This document shows, one piece after another, positions 6,467-63,862 of a stretch of 64,000 bases of DNA. The stretch's first letter is position 1. Every line of letters starts with the position of its first letter. Below the pieces are notes generated by a model. That model was not told where the DNA came from, ran no database searches, and saw nothing but the letters and a program-made list of their open reading frames with translations. Made by a program: the position numbers and the translations under genes. The DNA is from Ricordea florida. Lineage: Eukaryota > Cnidaria > Anthozoa > Corallimorpharia > Ricordeidae. Location of the stretch: positions 42,873,157 through 42,937,156 of the forward strand of contig OX453272.1 of NCBI GenBank assembly GCA_949710005.1, written 5' to 3'.

Positions 6467-7252
6467 GTGCCAATTTGTGACTAAAAAAGAAAGGAAAGAG
6501 AAAAAAGGAACTCTCCCGAAACCTGGACTCGTTCGCTTTCTGCATCCCGCATAATTAAATGAAACATCCTCGAACTTAAAAATGACCGCCTTCCAATTGT
6601 CTTAATAGCAGCGTTGCGCTGGTGTCGTCGGAATCTTGTTCAAGCCAGAATTTTTTCAGGTCTTTTCTTGGCAACTGACTACATAACTGCGAGGATCTTT
6701 CATTTATCAAATACGGTTGATACTGTTCGGGAGCTTTCCAAAGAGTGGTTACACTGCATTGTTTGATCAGCAGATAAAAAAAAGAGCCACACTGGATAGT
6801 CAAACAAACAGTGCCAGAGGACAGCATCGATACACTACTGTCCAGTAGCTTTCCGAAGACTGCGCATGCTGGCTGGCTGTTTGTTACTAGTCAGATTACC
6901 CATTGGCCGCCCAAGCTCGAATTTCAGCACTACCATGGGTGACTTAGTCAAGTTTTGCCTTCACTGCGGTTTTTGGGTGCACATGGAGCAAAAGGTGACA
7001 GAGTGAGTCACCCACCGGGTAGTGTTGAAATTCGACACCGTTGGACGATTCACTATCACAAGCTTGAGTAGAAAGGAATGGTCTTTAAGTTTTAAGTAGA
7101 ATTTGCTCATTTTTTGCGAGATGCTCGAATATTTTCGGAATTGAGACATTCCCTGAGAGTAGATTAGACGGCGTTCTAGACCAGAGAGCGAAGCTTGGGC
7201 CTAGTAGGGAGAACAAGGACATATGCATATAATTAGACAGTTTGGAGTTGGT

Positions 7253-7359
7253 CGCCATATTGAATGACTTTACGACCGCCATATTGAATGTTTTATGGAA
7301 TATATGATTTTAAGGTTGCCATGTTGAATGGATTACGTTATGGTCGCCATATTGAATTC
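7253..7359 (+). promoter_or_regulatory. Subterminal repeats of CGCCATATTGAATG
   Basis: Four copies or near copies begin at about 7253, 7277, 7317 and 7345, and they are mirrored at about 20335-20450. The core CGCCATnTTG matches the YY1-type consensus. Clustered motifs just inside a terminus could bind the element's own recombinase or a host factor. That role is inferred. Confidence 0.45.
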
Positions 7360-7996
7360 ATAAACAGCGCCGGAAAAAGGGGTATAAATTACAGTAAACG
7401 CCCGAGAAAATCGCTGTCCTCTTAAAGGAAATTATGCATGCGGGCCGGGCATGTTGAGGCGCGCATACAGCAAGGCACTAATATACTGAATATACCTTTA
7501 CATTAACCACACAACGCATAGTTTCACGTTCAAAAAAAATAGTTTATTGTTCACACTAATAAAAATACAGTTCAGTAACACTGTCCTTCAATTATAGTAA
7601 AATGAGACTCCAGTGTCCTTGTCTGTAGCTTGATATAATGGTGGAATGTCCTTTTTGACATCTTCTATGACGACAAATTGTCTCTGTAGCTTGGGTTTTA
7701 TCGGTTGTTGGTTGTTGGACTGCCCGTGATGAGATGTACAATAAGACTCTTCATCTGCTCACTGAAAATATCGACAACTGTCTTTTCTGCGACAGGTAAG
7801 ATAGGGTCTGAATGGATTTTTCTCTGATCTTGACACTCTCGTGGTTGGTACTTCCTTGTGGTGACACAGAGGTACCTGACCTCCCGCTTGTAGCTTGTAG
7901 TCAGGAATCACGCGATCTCTCAGGCACTGATGATAACCGTGGATATTATCTTCATGACAGAAGACGGGACATTGTCTCCAGTCCAAACAACGTAAG

Positions 7997-8946
7997 CATA
8001 GCCAGAAATTCCGAACCAAAGTGGGCGGTGCTTATTTCTGTTACGCACCAGCACACATGATAACCTGTCAATAACGCTAGGGTGTGATTGGTCCATCTGT
8101 TAAAGGTCAACCAAAATGGCGTCGCGTAATAAAACTCAGAGAGGGTATTTATCCGAGCTAAATGCTAAATGCTGATGCCGACTTTGTTTTGCCAAAGAAA
8201 ATAATTAAGTACACAAGGTCTACTTATTGGGAAGTCGAAAAGCTCGTCGAAAGACGTGAAAGAAATGGAGCGGTAAGTGTTTGGCTGTAGCGCATGATTT
8301 CTTTTTGCCCGAAAACCAACAAAAAAAAAATAATAATTCCAAAATTCCCTCCAAAAAAGCATTATCCACCGAGCCTCCAGCCTCGTAATCACACCATGTA
8401 GCTACCAGTCTTTTATCTGTCGTTGAGCTGATGGTATCAAAATGGCGATCGTTTTGGCACAGAATTTAGTACAATTACTGTTCGTGGATGCCTTCATACT
8501 TGCTGAAAGTAAGCTAAAAAAGCCGCAAGATTTTCGGGGTTTACAAAGTCTTTTTTGCCGTAAATGTGGAATACCATCTTTGAACTTAAATTATTTGATT
8601 GGGATGGATCGATTCCAGCAGACGATTTCAGCTGAGTCAAGATGTTGAAAGTGTCATTGACGAAGGTACGCGCCATTTTAGTGTGTTGTAAAGGGCATTT
8701 ATTCGGAACAAAATAACCAAGAAAACCGCAACGAGTGTTTGATTTACCAAAACAAAATAATTATGCAATGAAAGTACTGATGCATATTATTCGATCTAAC
8801 ATTGGGATGGGGTTGTTGCATCGATTGTACGAATTTTATAAGCTGGTTTTATATGAATCTCATACTGATCCTTCTCTCTTCAGCAAGTTTAATATTCTAA
8901 GTGTTACGGTCTATTGCACACGCCCGGTTCGAAATTTCTGGCTATG
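7997..8946. mobile_element. 950-bp non-autonomous DNA transposon inside the left arm
   Basis: The terminal inverted repeats CATAGCCAGAAATT are followed by CGAACC after one mismatch. Comparison with the empty site in the right arm shows a clean join, CGTAAG|TAACG, so this reading gives no target duplication. Choosing ends two bases further in would give a GTAA duplication and a footprint in the other arm. Near the left end is a CCAAT motif (GTGATTGG), an ATG at 8116, and after a frame break a segment reading TYWEVEKLVERRERNGA that runs into a GTAAGT donor. This resembles the start of a chromodomain. The right part holds another ATG frame on the minus strand (8494-8676). Confidence 0.75.
8116..8273 (+). 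pseudogene. Chromodomain-like first exon carried by the 950-bp element
   Basis: An ATG after AAAATGGCG opens a short frame (MASRNKTQRGYLSEL). After a stop and frame change, the sequence continues VLPKKIIKYTRSTYWEVEK then LVERRERNGA and a donor |gtaagtg. The YWEVEKLVERR-NG pattern is how many chromodomains begin, and some DNA transposons and retroelements carry chromodomains. The exon is broken and the rest of the domain is absent. The assignment is tentative. Confidence 0.4.
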
Positions 8947-9400
8947 TAACGTTCACCTGAGGCAGGAGTAATAACTTCAAGATCTTTCAGACAGAGTTCA
9001 CACTTGGAGTAGCTCATCATCGAAATTGTGATGAGAAAGAGTCACTGACATTATGAATGTATGAATACGTTAGTTCTTTTGGGAACCAGACAAACAGGTT
9101 TTTTGAAGATCGGATACAAGTTTGTACGAGAAATACTTTTAGGCGCTTTACTTTAACCACCGAAATTTTTTTTTCCTGTTAAACCGGAATGACACAAACC
9201 AGTCACTGAATGTTTCTGCTGATAATTTATGAAAATAAAGGAACTGCATGGATGGAACAAATGATCAACCAACAACTCTTTGCGTTGGACATGGACGCTT
9301 TATATTATCGTTTTTAACCGACTGTGTTTGGGTGAGAAAGTGATACCATGTCTGAATAAGCTTTGAAATCGATCTTGTAGTGAGCTGGAACGTGCCATGA

Positions 9401-9763
9401 ACAAACAGGCGAGGCCAAAGACGCGTATTCATTGCATGGATGTATCCGTTGAATGATATTGCAAGAAAAAGAAGACCTTTTGTAGACAACATCCAACTCG
9501 TTCGAAAGTGTACCTCGAAGGATTGTTGGATATTTGTTGCGACAAATAGTCTCGTTATTCCGTGGTTACTGGCCGTAACCCATGAAACAACCCAGGAACT
9601 TATTAAACAGACATTTATACGTGGTGCAACAATAAATGAATTTCATAAATTGAAGGTGAATTTAAAACGTCGCAAACAGCTACTTGAGAAGCAAGTCACA
9701 TATCCACGAAATTCAAAAACTAGTGAAGTCAAACCTTTGAATGTTAGTTACTTCGATGGGTAG
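9401..9763 (+). CDS. Arm-encoded protein of unknown function, left copy
   Basis: An open frame begins after a stop at 9398-9400, with the first ATG at 9440, and ends at 9763. From the ATG it gives 107 residues. It is rich in Lys and Arg (ARKRRPF, NLKRRKQLLEKQ), has a hydrophobic stretch SLVIPWLLAVTH and ends NVSYFDG. The upstream open part adds an RR-rich segment. No family was recognised. The same frame, identical from the ATG, occurs in the right arm at 18885-19208. That identity may reflect recent arm homogenisation rather than selection. Antisense frames at 9265-9496 look like shadows. Confidence 0.4.
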   Translation, partial: TNRRGQRRVFIAWMYPLNDIARKRRPFVDNIQLVRKCTSKDCWIFVATNSLVIPWLLAVTHETTQELIKQTFIRGATINEFHKLKVNLKRRKQLLEKQVTYPRNSKTSEVKPLNVSYFDG

Positions 9764-9834
9764 AATATTGCACAACAAAGAAACACTAAACAAACCTAAA
9801 GTCTATGCGAAAGGTTAAACTGAAGGCCGCAAAC

Positions 9835-10680
9835 AAATTGTTCACAACGTGTTGGCACTGAGCGTTCAGCTTACAAACTCAAAGACCAAAAACCAAAAAG
9901 GTATCAAGCCAAGTTACACGGGAACCCTTTCAAAATTGAATTCGCAAAAGTTTTGTTTTTCTTGACAAAGAGAAGTTCTGAATTAGCATATCATTCTGCG
10001 AATGAAAAGTGAAAACAATGAGATGTAATTAGTTTTAAAAATCGCTCATTGAAAGTGGACAAGTACTTAAAACATGTTTACCTCTTAAGCATTGTTCCAC
10101 TGAGAGATGTTTGAGAAATTTACAAAACATGAATTAGGATTAGATCTTCGGTTAAAACACAAAGTTCTCTTGGTCGTAAAAATAGACAACTTTACAAACA
10201 GTGAGCGACTTTCGGCTGATAATTTGCAAATAGCCGCTTTGCTTGGAGGCAGTTTTTGCCAGGTTGTTAAGCCAGGAGGAACTGATTACAATAGCGGCAA
10301 TGGCCTCTTTTTAGGAAGAGGCGTTCTGCCACTTGGAACGTGACTCACACCGTGTTAGTGAAAGCTCTTTAAGCGTACAAAAGATACACTTGTTTTACTC
10401 ACGAAGCGCTAGTTTACCGTCACTATTTGTTTAACTGGACTTTACAACAAACAATTACGCAAATCATAGCATCCGCAAACTTAACCAGGGGTGGATGCTT
10501 TACTTACACTTAGAGCAAACAAACTGTTCGCCCTGTTGGCACTGAACGCTCAGCTCGTAGAGTCAAACAAACAGGAAGAAAGCGAATTCGGATGAGACCT
10601 AGTCGAGAAGATGAAGTTCTGATTTCGCATTTGACCATGAAAGTGAAGATAACGAGGTGTAATGAGTATATTGAAATGCG
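9835..10680 (+). repeat. Diverged direct repeat, about 670 bp period
   Basis: About 9835-10060 and 10505-10680 share words such as GTTGGCACTGA, CAGCT and GAAAGTGAA, and a sequence ending GAGGTGTAAT or GAGATGTAAT. The first copy straddles the inner edge of the left arm. The repeats could have mediated loss of the 1.57 kb segment missing from the right arm. Confidence 0.4.
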
Positions 10681-11187
10681 CTCATTCACGCGGTATCGAG
10701 CCGTTTTTGTTCAAAAGAAGACAAAGACAATGCGGGAAAAACAGTTAAAAACTTTGCCAAACGTGTCCGACGCAACTAAATTAAACACACTGGGCACCTT
10801 AAGAGTTTTGAAAAAACCCCGTAAACCTTTGTCTGCAATTGCAATAGAAAAGGGTAGTTTCAAGCCAAAACAAATCTTGTTTCATCTAGTTTTGATTTCT
10901 GTTATCAGGACTGCGTACGCTTGGAGCAATTTAAACTTGCTCTTTGAAAGCAGTTTCACCTTACGGCAGAACTCGGAGGTACTTTTCTAAATTGTTTACA
11001 ATAGTGACAATTTCTTCCTTTTTAGTACAAACCATCCTGCTCGCTCACGATGGAGCATTGCTCCTCAAATTCACAATAACGAGAGTCGGTTTCTCGGACG
11101 AAAACAGAAAGGCATGTTTTACTACGAGATGATAAGAATGAACTTTGTATAGGAACGTGCTCTGGAATAAGAGAGCAATCTATTCCT

Positions 11188-11250
11188 ACTCGCAAAAGAT
11201 GGAGCATTGCTCTCAAACTGCGCAAAAGATGGAGCATTGCTCTCAAACTG
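11188..11250 (+). repeat. 31-bp tandem duplication
   Basis: GCAAAAGATGGAGCATTGCT is repeated twice with CTCAAACTG between copies. A third partial copy of GATGGAGCATTGCTC lies at about 11050. Confidence 0.65.
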
Positions 11251-11342
11251 CAGAGTATCGGCATGGATGCTTGCATTAAAACCAAAACGTGTGTTTGAGT
11301 AAGGTTTCACAATAAACACCGACCAGAAGATCTTTTTTTTTG

Positions 11343-11343
<1 letters not shown>

Positions 11344-11391
<48 letters not shown>

Positions 11392-11392
11392 G
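11344..11392 (+). repeat. (GT)n microsatellite
   Basis: This is an almost pure GT run of about 45 bp, broken by a single A near its end. Confidence 0.9.
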
Positions 11393-11986
11393 CAACAAAA
11401 TACACAGCCCGGAGTGAATTTGGCGATCGGGGAGAAATTTCATAGTTCCAAGTTGACAATAATAGTTTTATTAACCAGCTGATAAAAATGTACAAATGCT
11501 CAATGAATAAAGAGGAAGGAGATAAGATGAACAGAGCTTGTCATGGAATGACTATGGATGTTTTTGTTTGCAACCAAATTTTTCAAGCACACCGTGGGTA
11601 ACAACTCGGCCAGACACGCTTGTTATCGACCACGCTGGGAAATTTTACTGCCAAATGTGGCCAAGTTGAGTGCACAATAGGTTGGTCAGCCGTAACACCC
11701 CACACAATACTTCATGAGTGTGACACTTGAAAGGCCATGTGTGTTTGGGCACTGAATATGTGTACGAATGAAGTATTAACCTTCCTGATTCGAACAAATT
11801 AAAAATGGCTGCTGTTGTGAGGCTACTTCATTATGCATGCTGTACTTGAATTGTCTTGGGAAGTTCGCGTGCAAACATTTCTTGCTCGGCTACAACATGC
11901 GTAATGAAGTAGGGACCTGAGCGGAAATCATTCCGAATATTATCCTCGGTGCACTTACTGTAGGCCGGTCTGAACTACTGTCTCTA

Positions 11987-12484
11987 TGGACAATTTAGAT
12001 AAAGGAAAAGTGGAGAAGGCTTACGAAGACCTTAAAAATCTTGTGGAGCCAATTACAGAGCCATTTCGGACCATCGAGGTCAAAACATAGGCATCGCGTT
12101 GGCCAGTACTACCCCATGATTTAACGCAAAGCAGAGAGATGGTACAAGCAGTTTATGAGAAGATTATCGTTTAGGTGTGCTCCGAGAAGTCCTTGGAAAG
12201 TTTTTATAAAGGTGGAATTGCCTACAGAATTATTCCAAATTATACGGACACTTGCGTCAACCACAAACTACGGCTTATTCACCGGCGAGACCAAAAGAAA
12301 CACAAGAAGGCTGTCTTGGCGTTTACGTCTTTTGCCAGGGCCGGTAAAAAGTCTTTTTAATAAGATTATGGGCACCTCTTACTCAGATGATGAGTTTCTC
12401 AAGAAGAAGTTCAAGAATAAGAAGAGAATTGAGGCTATTGTAAATGAGGAGAAGCAGTTTGGAATGACATACGATTTTGATTAG
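11987..12484 (+). pseudogene. Broken frame of unknown function in the large element
   Basis: An ATG at 11987 opens a lysine- and glutamate-rich segment (MDNLDKGKVEKAYEDLKN) that stops near 12090. Two further segments in other frames continue to 12484, the last ending KQFGMTYDFD. The three pieces could be one decayed gene, but no family is recognised and the joins are guesses. Confidence 0.3.
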
Positions 12485-12682
12485 GAAATTTTACAATTTG
12501 ATTTTTGTTATAGTGTTTGCAATATGCACAACTTCCCAATACACACATCGGTACTTCTGTAAGTTGTACTCATTTCCATGAGTTAAAGAGTACACATTTA
12601 AACCATGAACAATAACTTGTACTTGTTGATACAAAGAAAACATTTTGGTTCCTATTGTCTACGATGTTGTAGGTAACTTATA

Positions 12683-13058
12683 GTAGAGTGCACTCACTTT
12701 ATCTGTGAAACAAATAATACTAGCTACTACTAAATAGTGTTGATTAGACAACAGGAAACAAAGAAATTAGCATAATTTAACACCTATTTTGTACTGTTTA
12801 TATTTCACGGATTAAGTGTGTGCGCTCTAATACATTTATTTGTTTTGTTATAAGGTGCTCATGCTAAATTCATGAAATAAATATTACTAAAGATACAGCT
12901 TGCTAAACAGTGTAGAGTAAATACACTTAATTCCTGAAACAAACATAGTACAAAGTAGGCGATAAATAATGCTAATTTGTTTGTTTTCTATTGTCTCATC
13001 AACACTATTTATTATAACTAGTAATATTTGTTTCACAGATTTAGTGCTTCTACTCTAG
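12683..13058. repeat. Long imperfect hairpin built from a repeated TTTCA-GGATTTA motif
   Basis: 12683-12777 pairs with 12963-13058 as an imperfect inverted repeat. Inside it, about 12795-12835 pairs with about 12910-12950. Each arm contains versions of GTTTCACGGATTTAGTG or its complement. More single versions lie near 13090, 13780 and 13865. The region is AT-rich and non-coding. Confidence 0.55.
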
Positions 13059-14087
13059 CATAATTTAGTGCTATTTGCTGTGTAATTATACGTTCACTGG
13101 TTTAGAGGGAGCACTTAACCATTGTATATAAATATAAACACAAGGAATGAGTCAAATACAAATAACTTTTATTCCATTAAAGTCAAATACATAGACATTT
13201 TTTTTATAATCTCATAATCAGTATATATTGAGTATTTAAAGATGCATTTAAAACATACAAACATAAAATAGTTTTGCATTATTCATTGTTATGATTTCCC
13301 GGTCAATAGACAGTATTTGAAAAGGCACAACATCAAAGGCATAACAACTGTTATTGATTGGTTATAAATAGTTAAAATCAGTTATCAATCAGTTTTCCTT
13401 TTTTAGAGTAACAAAGTCAATTTATTTGAACTGTAAAAAAGTATTGGTGATAGTACTGCACTGTTTTTACTACAGTCAGTCATATTTCTTTTACAGTTTA
13501 ATGTGAATAGAACAAGTCTATCTCAAAATTACTTTTTGGCTCTTTTTAGCATATTTGTATGCAGAGCTTTTGAGTATTGATAGATAGATATATACTTTAA
13601 GTGGGTATTTTCAAATGAATAAATATAAAGTTAAAAAATAAAGTTAGAAAGCAAACACTAAAAGTGTGTAACATAACTAGTTCAAAATAAAAACAACAAG
13701 AAAACAAACTTATTAATTTTTTCCTTCTGCTTAATTTGTGCCATTCAGCTGTCCTAGCTAATTAAAGTAGTACTACTGTTTCATGGATTTAAATGCAATT
13801 TTTACTGTACATTTTTATATGTACACAATAGAACAGCAATGAAGCAATTAGAGTGGTTTTTATAAACCCATGAAACAAAAAAGTAATCAGAAAAGAGTAA
13901 TAGCCAGATTCACACAATAGAAAACAAAGTCTTGAGTTGAATGCATGCATGATTTCCATGACCAGTCCATGATTGTCAGGACAATATTACTTACTTGCTA
14001 ATTAATTCGGCTCGAATTCTTCCTCAAAGCATAATTTATTAAAATTGCTTTGATTTTCTTAAAAATTCTTCTTTTAATTCAGACCTC

Positions 14088-14204
14088 CTTTGAGCGAGAT
14101 CGCCTATGGGAAATCGCAGTTTTTCTGTAGTTTTGGTCGTTCTTCGCGGAGCTCTTCGCTTCTTGCTCCCCATCAGCCACAGCAGCACTCAATGCCACCT
14201 AAAA
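14088..14204 (-). CDS. Possible terminal exon, low confidence
   Basis: On the minus strand an acceptor-like TTTTTAG precedes an open segment (VALSAAVADGEQEAKSSAKN, then HRRSRSKEV) ending at TGA. The composition is basic and serine-rich. No partner exon was found, so this may be chance. Confidence 0.2.
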
Positions 14205-14591
14205 ATTCACCAATTTTGTGACAAATTTTCAATATTAAATAAATAACAATCAATGTTCTCGAGGTTCCAAAAATATTTAGTAGAGTCAAAAGTGTGGTTC
14301 TATGGTTTTAATTTGTTCATAAATCCTACACGAAGGCAAAAAAATAAGAAATAAAACAAGGTACTCACACTTCATATCGATGATTGCTCTTCAGATGTCT
14401 ATGCCAACTTTGCTCCGGAGCAAAAATGCGAAAAAAAAGTGAAAATATAGCAAATATGGTACGAGAAGAAAGCTCACGATGCGAAGAAACGATTTGTCTT
14501 TGGTGCAAAACAGATAAACTAGCTGCCAGGCTTCTATGGGCCAATAAAACTACAATACCAGCTGCGGATCGAATGAATCAATATCGGCCGA

Positions 14592-16203
14592 GCTCAATTG
14601 TCTCTTTAAGAGCCAATGTCGGAAAATATCGAGAATCTCAAATCAGTTCCAAAAATTCGAATTTTGGCTGATACCACCCAAACATCCCTTTGGGCGAACT
14701 ATTTCAAGAAACGATATTAAGAAATCCCCAAGCGCTTTACATTTTGAGAATTTTAGAAAAGTTCCAAAATTCGCAAAAAATACATTTTTTAATTCGGGAA
14801 ACGGGTGCAAATTTCAACATATTTCAACGAAACAGTACAAGCGCGCAAAAGCTCCTATTGACATGATATTACTCATGTATTTAGCAGACATCCACAGCTT
14901 CAAGACCCCGTAAAAAGGTTTTGCAAAATAACTATTTTAACATAGTTTCTGGCTTTTATTGTGTGCGCTCTGATTGTGTGTTGTTTTGGTAGTCAAAATA
15001 ACGCCCAACTTCAACCGTCAAAAGTCGATCCTGGTATGTCACAAATTGAAAAAACTACTATACCAAACGAAAGAACTGTTATTTTTTTAATTACACCTGA
15101 AGTTTTAGCTCTGCGAATTTAAACACGTGCGAGTAATAAAATTTCAACTTGTGCCCCCCAAGTCGCCTGTCCGCGACAAGAACGGGAATGTAAACAAAGG
15201 AAAACATATGCAAATCGAGGAGAAAATCGTACGGAAGTTATGACTTACCCCTCAAAGCGCAAAAAAAATTGATCGAATTCTGTTACCTTAACAGGTATTT
15301 CTATCTGAGAGACTAATAAAACGAAATTATCCGTCCAATAATAATAAAAAAGCTATAAAAAGGACTGGAGGGCTAGGGTCATGAAGTCGCCTCGGATGCA
15401 TCAGAACTCGTGTGTATGGTTCCGGAGGTAAAAAAGCTTCTAAAAAAGCTTTCAAAATGCACCATGGAGCAAGCAAACAATCTCAGTAAAAATAGACTGA
15501 TATTTTGAGGTATGATAGAAATGAACCATTGTAAGTTTATTTTTACAATTAAATAAAATGACAGAGGAGCGCCGGCCATCGACAGTTCGATTTTAAATGG
15601 TCCGTCCCTTGGCTATCGTACTCAATGTTAAGTACAAAAAACCGAAACAAGATTCAACGAACTAAAACATATATTACAATAACCTTTAAAAAGTATAATG
15701 CTAACTTGAGAATTAGATTTCCCGCATCGCAAAGTTTAAGTTATGTAAATATCAGGACTGTTTACTTACTGATCTTATGTCGTGTTACATGCTCCAAGTT
15801 CCACAGGAGAAGAGTAAAACCCTCCGTCTTGTTTATACATTTCATAAAAAAAGACTAACTTATTTGTTTCCTAGAACTATAGATAGGGAGTTAATAATCC
15901 TCCCATAAACACAGAAAACGAAGAAGCCAATTCGTCTCGTTTTTGGTGTTGTGTTACCTGTCACATTTTTCAAGTCACGTGTTTTGCTGTACACGGTTTG
16001 TGAAAATGAAATACAAAACACATTATTTAGTTATTTCTTTTAAGGTAGTCACCTGCAAAACATCGCACAACTGTCAATGAATAAAGAAGGACTGTGCAAT
16101 CAAAACTAACAGAATCTCCTGGAGCACACAAGCCATCTCCGTTTAAATTTTCATTAACAAAACATCATCTTCTATTCAGAATTTCCCGCTGTAACACAGA
16201 TCC
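14592..16203. repeat. Left arm of the nested inverted repeat
   Basis: This arm matches 16945-18545 in inverted orientation over about 1.6 kb with only scattered differences. It begins near TCTTTAAGAGCCA and ends near CCCGCTGTA. Two open frames that recur in both arms (15379-15579 and 15625-15858) have skewed composition and no domain, so I do not call them genes. It contains GGGACGGACCATT near 15598, the same word that starts the Harbinger-like MITE at 3127. Confidence 0.85.
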
Positions 16204-16497
16204 AAATCTCGGCATTAACGAAACATCTATCCTCTGAGAAATGCATACGGTCCTTGGAAAAACACACTCTTATGGATCTTACTAGAAGAGGGTGTCGGTG
16301 TCGTGCCAACCTTAAGAACCACCAGCGTTGCAAACAAACAATCCAGAGAACGTTTAACAGAGGGTGGGCCTTGCGACCCGCTAAGAAGGCGTACAGTTTT
16401 AGTGAAAAGCAGAAGGCCTACCTCACTGCTAAATTCAACATTGGTCAGTCCACTGGACGGAAAGTCGACGCACGTCTTGTAGCCTCAGGGCAATAAA
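16204..16497 (+). pseudogene. C-terminal fragment of a cnidarian-type zinc-finger protein
   Basis: The frame contains LSSEKCIRSLEKHTLMDL, a basic stretch, GWALRPAKK, and FSEKQKAYLTAKFNIGQSTG followed by RKVDARLVASGQ. I recognise the pattern KHL-x-K-C-x-LEK followed by W-AL and F-x-x-x-Q-K-x-Y-L-x-x-K-F-x-I-G-x-x-T-G-x-K-x-D. It is the C-terminal signature of a large family of uncharacterised zinc-finger proteins in corals and molluscs. The N-terminal part is missing, the reported start is only TTG, and the end is short. It sits in the core of the nested inverted repeat. Confidence 0.45.
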
Positions 16498-16944
16498 ATA
16501 TATTTTTGTAATTCTTTCCCACTCCAGAACTTTTTTAATGATCCGCCCGTTTCCTTATAAAAATGGAGCAGTGCGTGGCAGAGATTTGCCACACACCCGA
16601 AGAGGTACTCTACATGGGCCCTCCTCAACTGGTGTCAAACACTTTTTAGGATTAATACCCTTAAGGGTCATTGAAAGATATCACCAAAGCTCTCATGACT
16701 CTTGCGTGGTTTCTTCTTCTTTCTTTCCTTTCCTTAACTCAAGGGATGTCGGAAGAAGAATGACCCTGGAAAGGGGCTTGAGGGCTCCGCCGGCATGGGT
16801 ACGATTGGCACCCCTATTCAGGGAAGAACCTCCACCTACACCTCCACCTCCGAACGACCCACCTTCATGAGAGGGAGGGCGACGGGAAACTAAACATTTT
16901 ATGGGGATGGCCTAATAAAGTACAAGTTAGTTACGATTCGGATA

Positions 16945-18545
16945 TGTGATACAGCGGGAAATTCTGAATAGAAGATGAGGTTTTTGTTAATGAAAATTTA
17001 AACGGAGATGGCTTGTGTGCTCCAGGAGATTCTGTTAGTTTTGATTGCACAGTCCTTCTTTATTCATTGACAGTTGTGCGATGTTTTGCAGGTGACTACC
17101 TTAAAAGAAATAACTAAATAATGTGTTTTGTATTTCATTTTCACAAACCGTGTACAGCAAAACACGTGACTTGAAAAATGTGATAGGTAACACAACACCA
17201 AAAACGAGATGAATTGGCTTCTTCGTTTTCTGTGTTTATGGGAGGATTATTAACTCCCTATCTATAGTTCTAGGAAACAAATAAGTTAGTCTTTTTTTAT
17301 GAAATGTATAAACAAGACGGAGGGTTTTACTCTTCTCCCGTGGAACTTGGAGCATGTAACACGACATAAGATCAGTAAGTAAACAGTCCTGATATTTACA
17401 TAACTTAAACTTTGCGATGCGGGAAATCTAATTCTCAAGTTAGCATTATACTTTTTAAAGGTTATTGTAATATATGTTTTAGTTCGTTGAATCTTGTTTC
17501 GGTTTTTTGGACTTAACATTGAGTACGATAGCCAAGGGACGGACCATTTAAAATCGAACTGTCGATGGCCGGCGCTCCTCTGTCATTTTATTTAATTGTA
17601 AAAATAAACTTACAATGGTTCATTTCTATAATACCTCAAAATATCAGTCTATTTTTACTGAGATTGTTTGCTTGCTCCATGGTGCATTTTGAAAGCTTTT
17701 TTAGAAGCTTTTTTACCTCCGGAACCATACACACGAGTTCTGATGCATCCGAGGCGACTTCATGACCCTAGCCCTCCAGTCCTTTTTATAGCTTTTTTAT
17801 TATTATTGGACGGATAATTTCGTTTTATTAGTCTCTCAGATAGAAATACCTGTTAAGGTAACAGAATTCGATCAATTTTTTTTGCGCTTTGAGGGGTAAG
17901 TCATAACTTCCGTACGATTTTCTCCTCGATTTGCATATGTTTTCCTTTGTTTACATTCCCGTTCTTGTCGCGGACAGGCGACTTGGGGGGCACAAGTTGA
18001 AATTTTATTACTCGCACGTGTTTAAATTCGCAGAGCTAAAACTTCAGGTGTAATTAAAAAAATAACAGTTCTTTCGTTTGGTATAGTAGTTTTTTCAATT
18101 TGTGACATACCAGGATCGACTTTTGACGGTTGAGGTTGGGCGTTATTTTGACTACCAAAACAACACACAATCAGAGCGCACACAATAAAAGCCAGAAACT
18201 ATGTTAAAATAGTTATTTTGCAAAACCTTTTTACGGGGTCTTGAAGCTGTGGATGTCTGCTAAATACATGAGTAATATCATGTCAATAGGAGCTTTTGCG
18301 CGCTTGTACTGTTTCGTTGAAATATGTTGAAATTTGCACCCGTTTCCCGAATTAAAAAATGTATTTTTTGCGAATTTTGGAACTTTTCTAAAATTCTCAA
18401 AATGTAAAGCGCTTGGGGATTTCTTAATATCGTTTCTTGAAATAGTTCGCCCAAAGGGATGTTTGGGTGGTATCAGCCAAAATTCGAATTTTTGGAACTG
18501 ATTTGAGATTCTCGATATTTTCCGACGATGGCTCTTAAAAGACTG
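16945..18545. repeat. Right arm of the nested inverted repeat
   Basis: This is the inverted partner of 14592-16203. The differences are mainly point changes, for example Thr/Pro and Arg/Gly in the mirrored frames. The core between the arms is 16204-16944. No target duplication could be fixed at the outer edges. Confidence 0.85.
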
Positions 18546-18884
18546 GGTCAAGTGGACATTCTTTTGGCTGATAAAGGGGTAGAAATTTCCCACCGTGGAC
18601 TCTTCTTTTCATGCCAAGTTCCGTTGCAAATTGGTTGCAAACAAAAACATCCATAGTCATTCCATGACAAGCTCTGTTCATCTTATCTCCTTCCTCTGCG
18701 AATTCAATTTTGAAAGGGTTCCCGTGTAACTTGGCTTGATACCTTTTTGGTTTTTGGTCTTTAATTTGAGTTTGTAAGCTGAACGCTCAGTGCCAACACG
18801 TTGTGAACAATTTGTTTGCGGCCTTCAGTTTAACCTTTCGCATAGACTTTAGGTTTGTTTAGTGTTTCTTTGTTGTGCAATATT

Positions 18885-19208
18885 CTACCCATCGAAGTAA
18901 CTAACATTCAAAGGTTTGACTTCACTAGTTTTTGAATTTCGTGGATATGTGACTTGCTTCTCAAGTAGCTGTTTGCGACGTTTTAAATTCACCTTCAATT
19001 TATGAAATTCATTTATTGTTGCACCACGTATAAATGTCTGTTTAATAAGTTCCTGGGTTGTTTCATGGGTTACGGCCAGTAACCACGGAATAACGAGACT
19101 ATTTGTCGCAACAAATATCCAACAATCCTTCGAGGTACACTTTCGAACGAGTTGGATGTTGTCTACAAAAGGTCTTCTTTTTCTTGCAATATCATTCAAC
19201 GGATACAT
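18885..19208 (-). CDS. Arm-encoded protein of unknown function, right copy
   Basis: This copy is identical over its 107 residues to the left copy at 9440-9763. It points inward from the right end, as its partner does from the left end. The function is unknown. Confidence 0.4.
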   Translation of the reverse strand: MYPLNDIARKRRPFVDNIQLVRKCTSKDCWIFVATNSLVIPWLLAVTHETTQELIKQTFIRGATINEFHKLKVNLKRRKQLLEKQVTYPRNSKTSEVKPLNVSYFDG

Positions 19209-19626
19209 CCATGCAATGAATACGCGTCTTTGGCCTCGCCTGTTTGTTCATGGCACGTTCCAGCTCACTACAAGATCGATTTCAAAGCTTATTCAGACAT
19301 GGTATCACTTTCTCACCCAAACACAGTCGGTTAAAAACGATAATATAAAGCGTCCATGTCCAACGCAAAGAGTTGTTGGTTGATCATTTGTTCCATCCAT
19401 GCAGTTCCTTTATTTTCATAAATTATCAGCAGAAACGTTCAGTGACTGGTTTGTGTCATTCCGGTTTAACAGGAAAAAAAATTTCGGTGGTTAAAGTAAA
19501 GCGCCTTAAAGTATTTCTCGTACAAACTTGTATCCGATCTTCAAAAAACCTGTTTGTCTGGTTCCCAAAAGAACTAACGTATTCATACATTCATAATGTC
19601 AGTGACTCTTTCTCATCACAATTTCG

Positions 19627-19938
19627 ATGATGAGCTACTCCAAGTGTGAACTCTGTCTGAAAGATCTTGAAGTTATTACTCCTGCCTCAGGTGAACGTTA
19701 CTTACGTTGTTTGGACTGGAGACAATGTCCCGTCTTCTGTCATGAAGATAATATCCACGGTTATCATCAGTGCCTGAGAGATCGCGTGTTTCCTGACTAC
19801 AAGCTACAAGCGGGAGGTCAGGTACCTCTGTGTCACCACAAGGAAGTACCAACCACGAGAGTGTCAAGATCAGAGAAAAATCCATTCAGACCCTATCTTA
19901 CCTGTCGCAGAAAAGACAGTTGTCGATATTTTCAGTGA
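19627..19938 (+). CDS. Tandem GRF-like zinc-finger protein, right-arm copy, intact
   Basis: The 103-residue frame starts at the first of two adjacent ATGs. The C-terminal half has PLCHHK, then a basic spacer, then KNPFRPYLTC and DSCRYFQ. This follows the GRF zinc-finger pattern (C-x-H, then NPGR-F-Y-x-C and C-x-F-F). The N-terminal half has CELC, SGERYLRC and QCPVFCHED, which reads as a second finger of similar design. GRF fingers bind single-stranded or structured nucleic acid in APE2, TOP3A and NEIL3. A DNA-processing role for the element is therefore plausible but inferred. No basal promoter was identified. The protein ends at Phe-Gln, one residue before the usual Trp. Confidence 0.6.
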   Translation: MMSYSKCELCLKDLEVITPASGERYLRCLDWRQCPVFCHEDNIHGYHQCLRDRVFPDYKLQAGGQVPLCHHKEVPTTRVSRSEKNPFRPYLTCRRKDSCRYFQ

Positions 19939-20539
19939 GCAGATGAAGAGTCTTATTGTACATCCCATCACGGGCAGTCCAACAACCAACAACCGATAAA
20001 ACCCAAGCTACAGAGACAATTTGTCGTCATAGAAGATGTCAAAAAGGACATTCCACCATTATATCAAGCTACAGACAAGGACACTGGAGTCTCATTTTAC
20101 TATAATTGAAGGACAGTGTTACTGAACTGTATTTTTATTAGTGTGAACAATAAACTATTTTTTTTGAACGTGAAACTATGCGTTGTGTGGTTAATGTAAA
20201 GGTATATTCAGTATATTAGTGCCTTGCTGTATGCGCGCCTCAACATGCCCGGCCCGCATGCATAATTTCCTTTAAGAGGACAGCGATTTTCTCGGGCGTT
20301 TACTGTAATTTATACCCCTTTTTCCGGCGCTGTTTATGAATTCAATATGGCGACCATATCGTAATCCATTCAACATGGCAACCTTAAAGTCATATATTCC
20401 ATAAAACATTCAATATGGCGGTCGTAAAGTCATTCAATATGGCGACCAACTCCAAACTGTCTAATTATATGCATATGTCCTTGTTCTCCCTACTAGGCCC
20501 AAGCTCCGCTCTCTGGTCTAGAACGCCGTCTAATCTACT

Positions 20540-21075
20540 CCTGAGGTAGAAAGACTGGTGTTGTTCAGGCAATAGGGTCGATTGGTTACGGTGCACCGTT
20601 CTGCAGGTTTTTGGTCTTCCCTGATTGGTAAATTTCGACCCCGCTACTGTTCCTGTTAATTGCTGGGTGTTTACCATTTGCAGGAAGAAACCGGTTGGGG
20701 TAATCGATCGAAGGCAAAGGGCGGGCGAAGGGGTAATCGGGGTGAAGTCATGTTCACTGTGAGTCACAAGGGCTGCATCGTCAGCAAAGAGGAGGTCTCT
20801 CACGGTTGCTTGTCTAGTTTTGGTCTTCAGTCTGGAAAGATTGAAGATGGAGCCATCGCTTCTCCAGTGCAGTAGCACATCACCAGGTGTTTCAGTGCAA
20901 GCTCTTTGGAGGAGCACTGCAATGCAAATGCCAAACAAGGTTGGGGCCAAGACCCAGCCCTGTTTTACGCCACTCCGCACGCTGAAGCTCTGTAATCTGT
21001 CACCGTCGAACTGCACTGTGGCTTCCATCTCATCATGGAAGGACTTTATCAGGCTCAGTAGTTGGGGGGCATCCT
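20540..21075 (-). mobile_element. LINE reverse transcriptase fragment
   Basis: On the minus strand the frame reads SVRSGVKQGWVLAPTLFGI, then DLLFADDAALVTHS, the polymerase palm motifs with the catalytic FADD box. After that box the frame no longer looks like reverse transcriptase. A stretch in frame before the first ATG (LLSLIKSFHDE) is also typical, so the copy was longer and is 5'-truncated near 21075. The 3' side is cut by the end of the 13.4 kb element. Confidence 0.75.
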
Positions 21076-28800: not shown

Positions 28801-31800
28801 AAAAGAACTCTGCCCATACCCAACCACCTTGACCTCATGCTTGGTCAATAACGCCTACCAGCTGCATGTGCTTGTGAGCCATAGAGCGTACCGTACCTTT
28901 GTGAACACGTCCCATGTGCCCATGACCATGTTGATGATGAACCTGATCTGAATGTGATGAAGTTTCCTCTGAAAAACAGAAGACACAAACTTGTATAATA
29001 TACTGTAGCAAACAAGACCACACCTTTCACCATGCTAACATTCAACAAAGGCGATCAATACACACCACCTCTTCATAACAACAGTAAACAGGAGATGAAA
29101 GTTTCGAAAAATCCCAGCTTATTCCCAAACAAGTACAGTCCAACCTGCTTTATCCAGATTCGCTGGGCCTTGAGAGAAATGTCCAGACAATTTAGAGATC
29201 GGAGAATCAAAAATGTGAATATCCAGAGACAGAAATGAAACAGACTGTAATACCAAATAGATCATATTCAAATATAGAGGTAGTTCCATGATGATTTTTA
29301 ATCTTGTCTAACCAACCAGTTGATGTTTCAAAGCTTTCACGATCGTTTGATTCACAAATTGAGATGTTTTTTTTTTTTTTTCAATATTTCCAGTATCACA
29401 TGAGTTGTTATATTTACAACAAGAGAATAAGACATCTTCCCAGGTTTGAGCTTGAGTGCTCATGAAACATCAGATTGAGGGGCAAGTGCAATACCACTGC
29501 GCCACAAAGGCATCTAGACTTCTCGCTAGGCAAATAACGTTTTTACCATTTGTGTGATTCCAAACTGACTACCAGTTTTTAAGAGTTCAGACTCTATACC
29601 AACAAGCAAAACTCAAACTTGTTTTAGGAGTTTTAGGAGGTAGGGAAAAGAATCCTTTTCAACCTACTGCATGGAACTCAGAGAAAACGTAAAACATTAC
29701 CGGCATGTGAATCGATCCTAAATTTTCAAAACACGGTTATCTTTTATAAAGGAAGAACGTCCTTTTTAAGCTCAGAATGAAAATAAATATTTCCAAAGAC
29801 AACCTAACACCAAAAAAAGAAGATGTACCCTGTCGAGGCCTTAAAAGCAGCAAAAAGCCATTTTGTTTTGCCATTTCCTCAATTCCACACACACTAACTA
29901 GTATGGCTCTATTAAAAACCTAACCTAGGGATTCAAACAGACTTTAACATGCAGTGAATACAAGACCCTTAAATCACTAAAGCACAGTAAATGTTGTTTG
30001 TAAATGCTGATTTGCCTTTTGTCAACACTTTAAGAGATCATTTGAACCAAAATCTAGTGACTTCTGTAATTTTCATCACAATTTACAAAGTGGCTAGGAA
30101 CGAACACTGAATGTATTTTGCACGGACGCAATAAAATAGAAAGTTTTATGCCTCTAATATCAGAGGTGTTTTTTGTTTTTGTAAAGGTTTTGGTTGGGAA
30201 AGCTTTATATTGATTTTTCTGTCTTTGACAATTAATAGTATATTTTCAAGTTTAAAACACTCGAGAACACAGGGTATTCTCAGGTGGTCACCCATCCAAG
30301 TACTAACCCCGTCCGACAGGGCTTAACTTCGTTGATCGGAGGAGCACCAGTTTTTTTCCCTGTAGTATGGCTTTCATAGCAAGTAATTGTTTTTTGTTAC
30401 ATACAATAGCTTTCAGACCGAAATCCATTGAGTACTCTAAGCGCTCATCTGTCTGGTAACTTTAGCCACTTCCTTTAAATGTATTTCACCCATGATTTCT
30501 TCTCCTGGTTGCAGTGACTAGGCATCTTGTATTTATGGCAAAAACGGGACCAGATAATAAAAAAAGTCCAGATAATCAAAGTTTGACTGTGTCTTGAATC
30601 AACCAAACAGTTACTACAATCTGCAAACTACCATTCCCACTGTAAGCTACTTATTGCAAGCTTCTAATAGGAGCTTTAAGAGTCAGTTTCATAAATTATA
30701 TAACCCACAATTCATTATCTGCAAGGTGTTAGCAGAGAAAGTGGAGAATGAGTGAGCTCTCCAAATAAATCAATGCTGAATTTTCAAAAATTCTTCCTGA
30801 TCTCCTTACATGTATTCCTCTGCAATACATGTAAATAACATGGAATTTTGTTTTTTTTTTGGTTAAAATGTTTTAGGCACCATCATTTTAATTTTCATGA
30901 CAAGATGTCGTTGCTCGATTGTTTTACAGAAAAGAATGTATATTTCCTGACAACTGTGAGTAACACTTGACATCAAAATGAACACTAAACATTAACTTCC
31001 AATGTAAACTACTGTTAATGCTGAACAACCAGATACATGTAAATAGTTCAATAGATAGACAGGTAGTTGTACAAGTGAAGATTCAGTTCAAAATATAACA
31101 AGTGAAAACATTTAACAGAGCATTGTTACTTACTCTTTTCGGGAAGTGGCTCTGTAAGCCCACCACCAGCTGCTATGGCCTATGACGGCAAAAAACCCAA
31201 CAATCAGAGTGTTCTGAAGTAGGCAGATGAAGCATTTAACGTAAAAACTGTTAAGAGAAACAAAGAAAACGAGAGCTAAAAGTAATGCTTCTGAAACTGA
31301 TCCACCATACTTACTGCATGTGATGTAATGGATGATTTGGAAAATAACCGTTCCGCATCTTTGAATTTTCTGTTTCGTCTTTCAACTTTCGTGTTTGTGG
31401 TTCTATGAAAAAAAAAATAAAAATAAGGACAAATCACAAATAAAAGAACTAGGAAATGTCATACATACATGTAGGTACATGAACAGTACTTCACTAGAAA
31501 GAGTAGATGCAGTGATATAGAAAAACATTCTTAAAAGTAGTGTACAAGTACGTGACTGCATAGCTTCTAAATGTTACTAACAACAACAATCTCAAAAAGC
31601 AGCATTAAAAAATCTTGCCAGGTTAGCTCTGTTGCAAGTGAAAAAAAGCAGACTACAGCACAGGAGGTCTTTGGTTTAGCCTGCCCCAACACTTTTTAAC
31701 CTTAAAATACCAGTAACTGAGAAGGCATTTATAGAATGTACTGTATTATATCCTGCATCCAAAATAGACCACAAAAGAGATGTAGCTTTAGTCCACAAAA

Positions 31801-48000: not shown

Positions 48001-51000
48001 TATGATTACAGACCGAATTGGACTCCACTCAGAGTCCTATTTTCATTACTTATCCGGAGCTACAATTGCGACTAGCTACTTAATAACAGTGTCACTGGAT
48101 TCTACAAAACGAGTTTATTGTAAAAAAAGCTTGAAAGATACCGAATTTGTTATGTTTTCTTCGAAAAACAGTTACAGATTTACTAAGGCAAACGTTTTTA
48201 GCATATATTTGCATAATGATCGCTATAAATATAATAATGATAAAGATGCATTAAATATAAAGGATAATTAATTTTTGCTTCACTTGCTCACATAAAATGT
48301 TAATTTTCATGTTTATTCAATTCATGATATTGTTAATCAGTGCTATTATATTATTACAGGAGCCCATTATTATTATTATCATTATTATTATAATTTCGTG
48401 GCAATGTAAACATATACATGACATCAGAAATGTTAGGCCCCCGTCCACACGTATCCTGATACATTCGAATCGGCAAACTTTCCTTTGCGGATTCAAAAGT
48501 TTCCGTGTCCACACGTAGCGTTTTCGAAGCGAATATGCCCGTACCGTATCCTAACGAATCCGGATTTGCTCTACTGGCGCTCACATAATTGTTGTCTTGC
48601 CTTCGGTGTACAGCCTGAGATGGTCAACCAGTTCCTAGTTAAAATTCTTTTTCCATTCTTTCTCCAGGCTGGACCCAGAACCAGGCTCATCTCCAGTGTA
48701 ATATAATTTATTCACACAACTGACGTCAAAAAAAGGACACAAAGCATTCTTATCAATGTACCTAACCCTAAGAAAAGGAGTAAATTATGTTACACTCGAG
48801 ATGAGCCCAGAATTGTCAAGAACGCAGCCAGCTCGTTTCAGTTGTTTATCGTGGTGTGAAGTTCGACGGTCAGACATCGAAAGAAGCCTCAGAATGTCGA
48901 ATCGTCTTTTCACAAGGTTTAGGTGAATGGAGAACATAGACTAGTTTAATTGTAAACACGCTATCAGACTTGAAATAAGTCCAACAAGAAGAGAAGCGAT
49001 GGCATTTGTTTTGGCGTCCATGTTGTATGTTCACGCAATAAATACTGGAACCGCTTTGGTTACGTCATCGGATTCAAAACTTTACGGATTCAACCGTATT
49101 CGGCGTCCACACGATATCGAATTCATATCGTATTCAAAAGTTTCCACTCTGGAAAGCGGATTCAAATCTTTGCGGATTCGGTTGAAGGATTCACCGGATA
49201 CGTGTGGACGAAATAAATAAATAAATAAATAATAAATAATAGCTTTATTTAACCAGGGAACACCATCAGATAACTGTTCTCCCTGTTGCCCCTAACGTGC
49301 AAGGTGCATCCGCAAAGAAAAGTTTACGGATTCAAATGTATCCGTGTGGATGGGGCCTTAAAAGTAATACCCGATTATACACAAAATTAATTGTCAATTT
49401 TGTAAATCATTTGCATGAAAAAAATGTCCTGGCAACAATGAAATGTTGTTTACTTATCGGTATCGTTTCAAAACAAAATCAATATCTACTAAGAAGACAC
49501 TATTTGGTATTACTTGTACAAGATGCCTATCAGCAATAATTTTTATCAGCATGAAAAGTTCCAGCTTCTTTCTCATCATTGGAAGATGAGGATCATTTTT
49601 CTTGCTCTCAAAAACAAGAAACTTATTAATTTTTTGCATTGAAAGATGAACAAAATTCCATCCTACTCCTGACAAAGATATCTTTATGTCCTATCGAAAA
49701 ATATGATTGGACAACAATTCTGTCAAACGCCAGTCTCCTGAAATGGAAACTAGTTAAGCCCTTACATGCAATTACATGCCTTACAATTACAAGCCCTTAC
49801 ATGCCCCCAAAGTTGCTAGGAAGCCTTGTAGTATTTCGTTCACGGACCGTTTGAATGAGTGTGTTTTAAACTGAGTTCAAACTCGCTGTAAAAGCAAAGA
49901 GATCATTGAGAAAATAACAATAATGGAACGGTGGGCATACGCAGAAAGGACATCTTTAACGAAATGACCAATATTCGTTGGAGAAAAATTCGGAAATCAG
50001 TGCGAAAAAATATCATAAAGTGCGATTGGTCATAATCTGTTTACTGCGATTTTCATAATTCTGCGAACTCCCGCGTTCAATTTCCAACCGCCAACTGGCG
50101 TCTTTGCTTCCGTCAATCAAACTTCCGAACATTTTCCGAGTCCAGGTCGACCATCCGCCATTGAAAGAAAATGCCACGTAAGTTCGGCTCTTCTCTTCGA
50201 TGGCGAATTATTCGCCTGAATATTACCCACCGTGTAGACTCTGAATCGGCCAAACTAGAACTGACATCAAGAGAATCCGCCATCTTCGCCGTCACACGTG
50301 TGTTGATCCAGCTGGGCGGAGTCAGTGCTTCGGAAACTGTTCGACTACCATTCGAGCGACATCCGAAGTTTGATTGACGGAAGCAAAGACGCCAGATGGC
50401 GGTTGGAAATTGAACGCGGGAGTTCGCAGAATTATGAAAATCGCAGTAACTAACTTAACATGCAAATACAACTTCAGAAAAATTCTCAAAAACTGATGCG
50501 GGTCAGTATAGAATACTGTTGTCGAATAGGACGTTATTCTAAATATATTCCCTGTTTCTGTCGAACTGCACGACAGCAGAGATCTCATGTATATACCCAC
50601 CACGAGTACCATTGTACGTAACTGTTTCCCTTTACAGGCAGAGGTCTAATGTATATACCCACCACAAGTCCGATTGTACTAATTGTTTCCCTTTTCAGGA
50701 AGAGATCTCATCTATATAGCCACCACGAGTCCCATTGTACGTAATTGTTTCCCTTTTCAGGCAGAGATCTCATCTATATACCCACCACGAGTCCCATTGT
50801 ACGTAATTGTTTCCCTTTACAGACAGAGATCTCGTGTATATACCCACCACGAGTCCCATTGTACGCAATTGAATGGTTCATTGAATAATTTAACATGTGT
50901 TACGTAGTTGGGGACTCGTGGCGGGTATATTCATGAGATATTTCCCTGTGCGAGGGTGACAAAAACTAACGATTACACCACACTACCGAATGAGTACGAA

Positions 51001-63670: not shown

Positions 63671-63862
63671 TCCTGTAAAGGAAAACAATTACATACAATG
63701 GGACTCGTGGTGGGTATATACATGAGATCTCTGCCTGTAAAGAGAAACAATTACATACAATGGGACTCGTGGTGGATATATACATGAGATCTCTGCCTGT
63801 AAAGGGAAACAATTACATAATACAATGGGACTCGTGGTGGGTATATATATGAGATCTCAGCC
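63671..63862 (-). repeat. 62-bp minisatellite, about three units, reverse orientation
   Basis: Units of CTGTAAAGGGAAACAATTAC, then CAATGGGACTCGTGGTGG and TATATACATGAGATCTCTGC. They are the complement of the units at 50575-50872. Confidence 0.85.

Follow-up and report, generated by a model that had tools for sequence, protein, structure and literature searches.

A probable non-autonomous Polinton carrying its left end twice in Ricordea florida, and its left-right, left-left and right-right relatives

The DNA analyzed here is a 64,000-nt stretch of Ricordea florida OX453272.1 (42,873,157-42,937,156), referred to below as the window, with positions relative to that stretch. It contains, at 7158-20539, an element with mirror-image arms and tips reading AGTAG...CTACT, bordered on both sides by the same six bases, CCTGAG, in direct orientation; from host duplication to element tip, the left join reads CCTGAG followed by AGTAGATTAGACGGC, and the right join reads GCCGTCTAATCTACT followed by CCTGAG. 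An earlier interpretation made from the letters of this DNA (the sequence-only reading) had proposed AG/CT termini and a CCTGAG duplication of Polinton type. Both were borne out, and a 30-base tip pattern searched at up to 2 mismatches gave 55 matches in the genome (31 forward, 24 reverse) versus 0 for the reversed-pattern control. The long arms it described are also real, with an inverted match of 840 nt at 99% identity (7157-7996 and 19701-20540), but the 1.85 kb assigned to them was too short, the left arm reaching 11577 and the right one starting at 18631. The CCTGAG duplication indicates that the window copy was inserted as a single unit with its present two ends.

The left host flank of the element is itself a repeat with at least 42 further matches (40 of 67 candidates scored), and eight short copies of it were fetched and aligned across the flank join to look for empty sites. 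Seven of them align beyond the join, by 2, 2, 8, 8, 9, 9 and 18 bases, and have a single hexamer at that position; the two shortest of these alignments carry little weight alone. The eighth copy aligns only as far as hexamer position 1. The seven hexamers read CCTGGT, CCTGGG, TCTGGG (twice), TCTGAG (twice) and CCTATC, with exact CCTGAG in 0/7. These copies, compared to test the refuting condition named by the sequence-only reading, are paralogous, not allelic, empty sites, and they count in favour of a target duplication.

The two arms meet around a centre of 83 nt that is now split (Table 1). As far as 11577 the left arm is the mirror image of the right one; from there it passes into the reverse strand of sequence found in loci L009 and L012. 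L011 and L012 themselves have left arms that stop sooner, at the counterpart of 11536. The centre junction is private to the window copy (found once genome-wide with as many as 3 mismatches allowed). Three differences separate the arms: the 946-bp insert of the left arm, around which no target duplication was seen, a loss of about 1.56 kb from the right arm near 18697, and 0.6-0.9% substitutions. These private indels and substitutions make an assembly fold-back an unlikely source of the palindrome. The window arms group as sisters, with starred support, in a tree of terminal repeats (see below), and have a premature stop in common, so both descend from one molecule.

Table 1. Features of the window element and end types of its relatives.
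Feature	Position	Strand	Remarks
Left target-site duplication, CCTGAG	7152-7157		6/6 identical to right copy
Left arm, L-type end	7158-11577	+	3,474 bp without insert 7997-8942
610-bp terminal repeat, left copy	7158-7767	+	common to left and right ends of relatives
GRF zinc-finger gene relative, left arm	7591-7998	-	same premature stop as right arm; cut by insert 7997-8942
946-bp insert in left arm	7997-8942		inverted ends CATAGCCAGAAATT; absent from right arm
Left part of 83-nt centre of outer palindrome	11578-11630	+	last bases GAC
CACG-ended repeat, interrupted	11631-18597		3-bp duplication GAC; 3.03 kb in other copies
3,925-bp repeat (nested palindrome of the sequence-only reading)	14610-18534		arms about 1.6 kb; TTAA on each side
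Right part of 83-nt centre	18598-18630	+	opens with second GAC
Right arm, also L-type end	18631-20539	-	1,909 bp; without counterpart of about 9947-11510
GRF zinc-finger gene relative, right arm	19606-20106	+	premature stop
610-bp terminal repeat, right copy	19930-20539	-	common to ends of relatives
Right target-site duplication, CCTGAG	20540-20545
L-R elements	C10:16507520, C3:13114169, C10:13209718, C1:33163563, C1:22297266, C16:13063827
L-L elements	window, C16:13481529, C1:27515798, C3:15851258, C4:19950325
R-R elements	C11:19455771, C16:10017864, C3:24577634, C10:18951679
Pairs not typed at both ends	C7:10613485, C8:21646858, C11:19547947

Searched in six frames, the window element gave no Pfam family, family B DNA polymerase (PolB) and retroviral-type (rve) integrase included, which agrees with the proposal that the usual Polinton genes are absent. 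Both enzymes were found between the same ends elsewhere. An element of 18,890 bp at C10:16507520-16526409 (L024, L025; the 18.9-kb copy) has an open reading frame (ORF) matching DNA_pol_B_2 (E 8e-49) and an rve integrase ORF (E 1.4e-12) with a Chromo domain (E 4e-7); a PDB sequence search of the latter agreed on an integrase core and a chromodomain. Among the matches listed, PolB also lies inside two further elements, the two-ended copy C3:13114169-13125349 and the 51-kb C16:10017864-10069245, and at a distance of 2.2 kb from a tip at C3:13442200. The genome search for PolB, with 77 of 3,872 candidates scored, gave at least 77 positions. Scanned against IMG/VR, the PolB ORF of this 18,890-bp element gave 16 pattern matches, and not one of them was confirmed as a relative. 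Residues 329-403 of this ORF (L025:1-2028, minus strand) resemble the Vsr mismatch endonuclease (E 0.002).

The tips, the 610-bp repeat and the 6-bp duplication place the window copy in one family with the 18.9-kb copy. According to PMC8097293, PMC4028283 and PMC6431247, Polintons/Mavericks have 6-bp duplications, AG...CT ends, PolB and rve integrase, as this family does; the 18.9-kb copy starts with AGTAGT, one of two tip motifs quoted in this literature, and its length lies within the 12.7-24.6 kb of vertebrate Mavericks. Terminal repeats are given there as 46-1,447 bp. The window copy has the 6-bp target duplication and the AG...CT terminal inverted repeats, and differs in its palindromic arms of several kb and its lack of enzyme genes. 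Since PolB and integrase are missing from it and present between the same ends elsewhere, it was filed as a non-autonomous derivative, as the sequence-only reading had it, and not as a complete Polinton. Two features of the 18.9-kb copy count against this placement: its P-loop ATPase ORF gave matches below the Pfam cut-offs, and no capsid protein was recognised. For major and minor capsid proteins and the protease, Pfam gave no match among the L024 ORFs scanned, and a PDB sequence search of two candidate ORFs gave none.

The sequence-only reading had also offered a separate lineage, Polinton-like at its ends and retaining small arm-encoded genes alone. The empty Pfam result for the window element and the existence of an arm ORF fit such a lineage, but the arm gene is interrupted in both window arms, and the same ends and the same gene occur in the copy with PolB and integrase, where an ORF with a GRF zinc finger (E 1.9e-7) adjoins the left end. 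We thus consider this lineage very improbable, and a separate geneless family was rejected, given that identical ends flank PolB and integrase. The arm-gene protein has at least 151 matches in the genome. When 34 distant relatives (29-42% identity, the GRF domain not itself tested) were compared with the 77 listed PolB positions, PolB lay within 25 kb of 19, with about 0.24 expected; 15 of these have it on their own strand, 13-23 kb downstream, 3 have it on the opposite strand and 1 has it upstream. PolB was also near 7 of 13 closer, hand-picked relatives. On both counts, the arm gene usually accompanies PolB elements here. Its pooled ratio of nonsynonymous to synonymous changes (pN/pS) was 0.65 (11 ORFs, with the N-termini of L015, L026 and L028 unalignable and pairs with few changes ranging from 0 to >3), and its GRF domain gives a weak alignment (E 0.001) to the NEIL3 zinc fingers. 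Within the literature searches made, nothing was found for Polinton combined with GRF or GRF zinc.

The ends of the window element recur through the genome. Inward-facing tips were paired by eye, yielding 16 pairs from the 55 tips (32 paired, 23 without a partner); two more came from a query of 843 left-end bases (at least 42 matches, 40 of 120 candidates scored). These 18 paired elements remove the possibility, raised by the sequence-only reading, that no other copy has these ends. Direct repeats of at least 6 bp lie at or near the tips in 12/18 pairs (shift up to 3 nt). Nine pairs have 6/6 identical bases at the tips; the other long repeats are of 7 bases at the tips (C10:16507520), 7 with a 2-nt shift (C3:13114169) and 6 with a 3-nt shift (C7:10613485). 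Partial repeats were found at C1:27515798 (5 bases), C3:24577634 and C11:19547947 (5/6 each) and C8:21646858 (4/6), and none at C4:19950325; C10:13209718 lacks a placed right tip in this count.

Inboard of the common 610 bp the ends continue in one of two ways, either as the remainder of the GRF gene (L) or as sequence common to right ends (R). Fifteen elements could be typed at both ends, 6 as L-R, 5 as L-L and 4 as R-R, and this mix within one family is the least ordinary result of the analysis and worth following. An exact 6-bp duplication borders six of the nine same-ended elements (window, C16:13481529, C3:15851258, C11:19455771, C16:10017864 and C10:18951679). The large arms, suggested earlier to be unusual and perhaps a new family, are indeed unusual, but they represent one of three end configurations in a single family; the window element is a known kind of element with an uncommon shape through one doubled end.

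Self-comparison of 11 elements gave the structure of the arms. In the four L-R elements compared, the inverted repeats measure 626-648 bp and are 88-96.5% alike. The arms of the five L-L elements and of C11:19455771 (R-R) exceed 2.3 kb (1.9 kb for the window right arm), mostly at 96-99.7% with inner stretches at 79-89%, and the 51-kb R-R element C16:10017864 has an inverted repeat of just 713 bp (99.6%). The tree was built from 23 terminal repeats, belonging to 10 elements with both ends and 3 single ends. Ends of the same element were sisters with starred support in 7/10 (four L-L including the window, two R-R and one L-R); E4 and E8, both L-R, were unresolved in the tree, and those of the 18.9-kb copy did not group together.

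Three other properties of these relatives were recorded. At C4:19950325-19958370 (L015), which has no target duplication, the inverted repeat extends beyond each tip into host DNA for 198 bp or more, forming a larger chromosomal palindrome. Small non-autonomous relatives have central ORFs in common (L014:2261-4006, with matching parts of L011, L012, L015, L018 and L020) that were not seen in the 18.9-kb copy; Pfam gave no match for two of them, one of which looks C2H2-like by eye. The 51-kb element (L016, L017) contains a second Polinton-like gene set, with two rve integrase ORFs, a Pox_A32 ATPase, a Capsid_N match just under the cut-off, ORFs of 1,274 and 1,453 amino acids, and an inner inverted repeat of 1.33 kb at 88%; it looks like one virus-like element within another.

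We consider it likely that the window copy is a non-autonomous Polinton/Maverick with its left, GRF-gene end present twice, head to head around the 83-nt centre, produced by snap-back and inserted by the integrase of a relative. For the origin taken by itself, snap-back is the most likely course and is favoured with some reserve, as the turn-round of the arm at the private centre is the shape that a strand switch onto the complement would leave. A linear copy would have been replicating when its growing strand switched onto its own complement and gave a palindrome. The integrase of a complete relative would then have inserted this product, because integration would require just the shared terminal repeat. 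Three unrelated insertions struck the element afterwards.

Several observations speak against this course. Four long-armed relatives (C1:27515798, C3:15851258, C4:19950325 and C11:19455771) have an unpaired centre of 2.7-3.2 kb, which a single snap-back would not leave, and two L-L copies, C1:27515798 and C4:19950325, carry in each arm some right-end sequence on the inner side of the left end, so their history was not a simple doubling. Microhomology at the window centre junction is little or none, and snap-back replication is deduced from inserted copies. The rival course is copying of the left end over the right end by recombination or template switching, with later deletion of the centre. 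The unique centres of the four relatives and the inboard right-end sequence of the two L-L copies are what an end exchange would leave; for the L-L and R-R elements with a 2.7-3.2 kb centre it is at least as good an account as snap-back. For the window copy this end replacement is a possible but less likely origin, as it needs two steps instead of one and as the mirror match continues past 11536, where the arms of L011 and L012 end, to a private turn-round at 11577. The inverted host DNA at C4:19950325, which also weighs against snap-back, indicates that chromosomal duplication can produce such palindromes too. An origin of the window palindrome within the chromosome, whether from an inverted duplication or from two insertions that recombined, is nevertheless improbable given the exact 6-bp duplications of the window copy and other same-ended elements, and given that the window host flanks are not inverted outside the tips.

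Copying of one end of a linear genome to the other, which gives longer mirror-image ends, is how poxvirus terminal repeats expand. This expansion of inverted terminal repeats (the title subject of PMC10230479) concerns other viruses and another scale, and the window copy, unlike its products, retains no unique centre. PMC8235507 describes snapback genomes of adeno-associated virus as defective molecules with the left or right part folded back, symmetric or with a loop. The likeness, same-ended molecules from either genome end, is an analogy only, since that virus is small with hairpin ends, whereas the Polinton products sit in the chromosome with target duplications. Within the literature searches made, Polinton plus snapback gave nothing, and Polinton plus defective interfering gave nothing related.

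We tentatively suggest that Polintons here may behave like replicating linear viruses that shed defective palindromic genomes from either end, to be inserted by the integrase of complete copies. The L-L and R-R insertions could then be a fossil record of extrachromosomal strand-displacement replication, in which the GRF protein might bind single-stranded DNA and hold the displaced strand. The replication mode of Polintons has been inferred from their genes. Inserted L-R, L-L and R-R molecules with target duplications are traces that any replication model must account for, and they can be counted in any well-assembled genome.

After its insertion the window Polinton was struck by three unrelated insertions, namely the 946-bp insert, a CACG-ended repeat and a TTAA-flanked repeat, the last (3.9 kb) nested within the second (3.0 kb), which lies within the centre of the outer palindrome. 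The CACG-ended repeat has at least 84 matches in the genome (40 of 1,053 candidates scored). Both of its ends were located in 7/9 loci examined, all seven with 3-bp direct repeats, and the six copies outside the window measure 3,030-3,031 bp. CACTA/EnSpm-like transposons have CAC ends and 3-bp target duplications. We liken the repeat to them on these two traits, with the difference that its ends read CACG; the six-frame Pfam search of the window element covered 11631-18597 without a match, and no search aimed at a transposase was made.

The nested palindrome, which the sequence-only reading had counted as part of the element, proved to be a separate high-copy repeat of 3,925 bp with its own TTAA target site; the inverted-repeat comparison had placed the palindrome at 14605-18539. 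It has at least 100 match rows in the genome (40 of 214 candidates scored), and TTAA adjoins its end in 8/8 loci, the window included. Among eight loci of the 3.0-kb repeat, one of which is the window itself (L037), an exact empty TTAA site is present in three (L042, L043 and L044), and the remaining four showed none with up to 4 mismatches allowed. The ends of piggyBac-type elements begin with CCC. The TTAA target duplication matches piggyBac, but the ends of this repeat begin with GAGCC, and it stays unclassified. Polinton ends that enclose a long palindrome do not by themselves indicate a new family; here the palindrome consists of a doubled end and unrelated nested repeats.

Elsewhere in the window, two 62-bp tandem arrays at 50576-50871 and 63672-63862 appear by eye to have the same unit in opposite orientation, and a 5S ribosomal RNA at 30259-30378 on the minus strand (70.6 bits), outside the element, is the sole Rfam match in the window.

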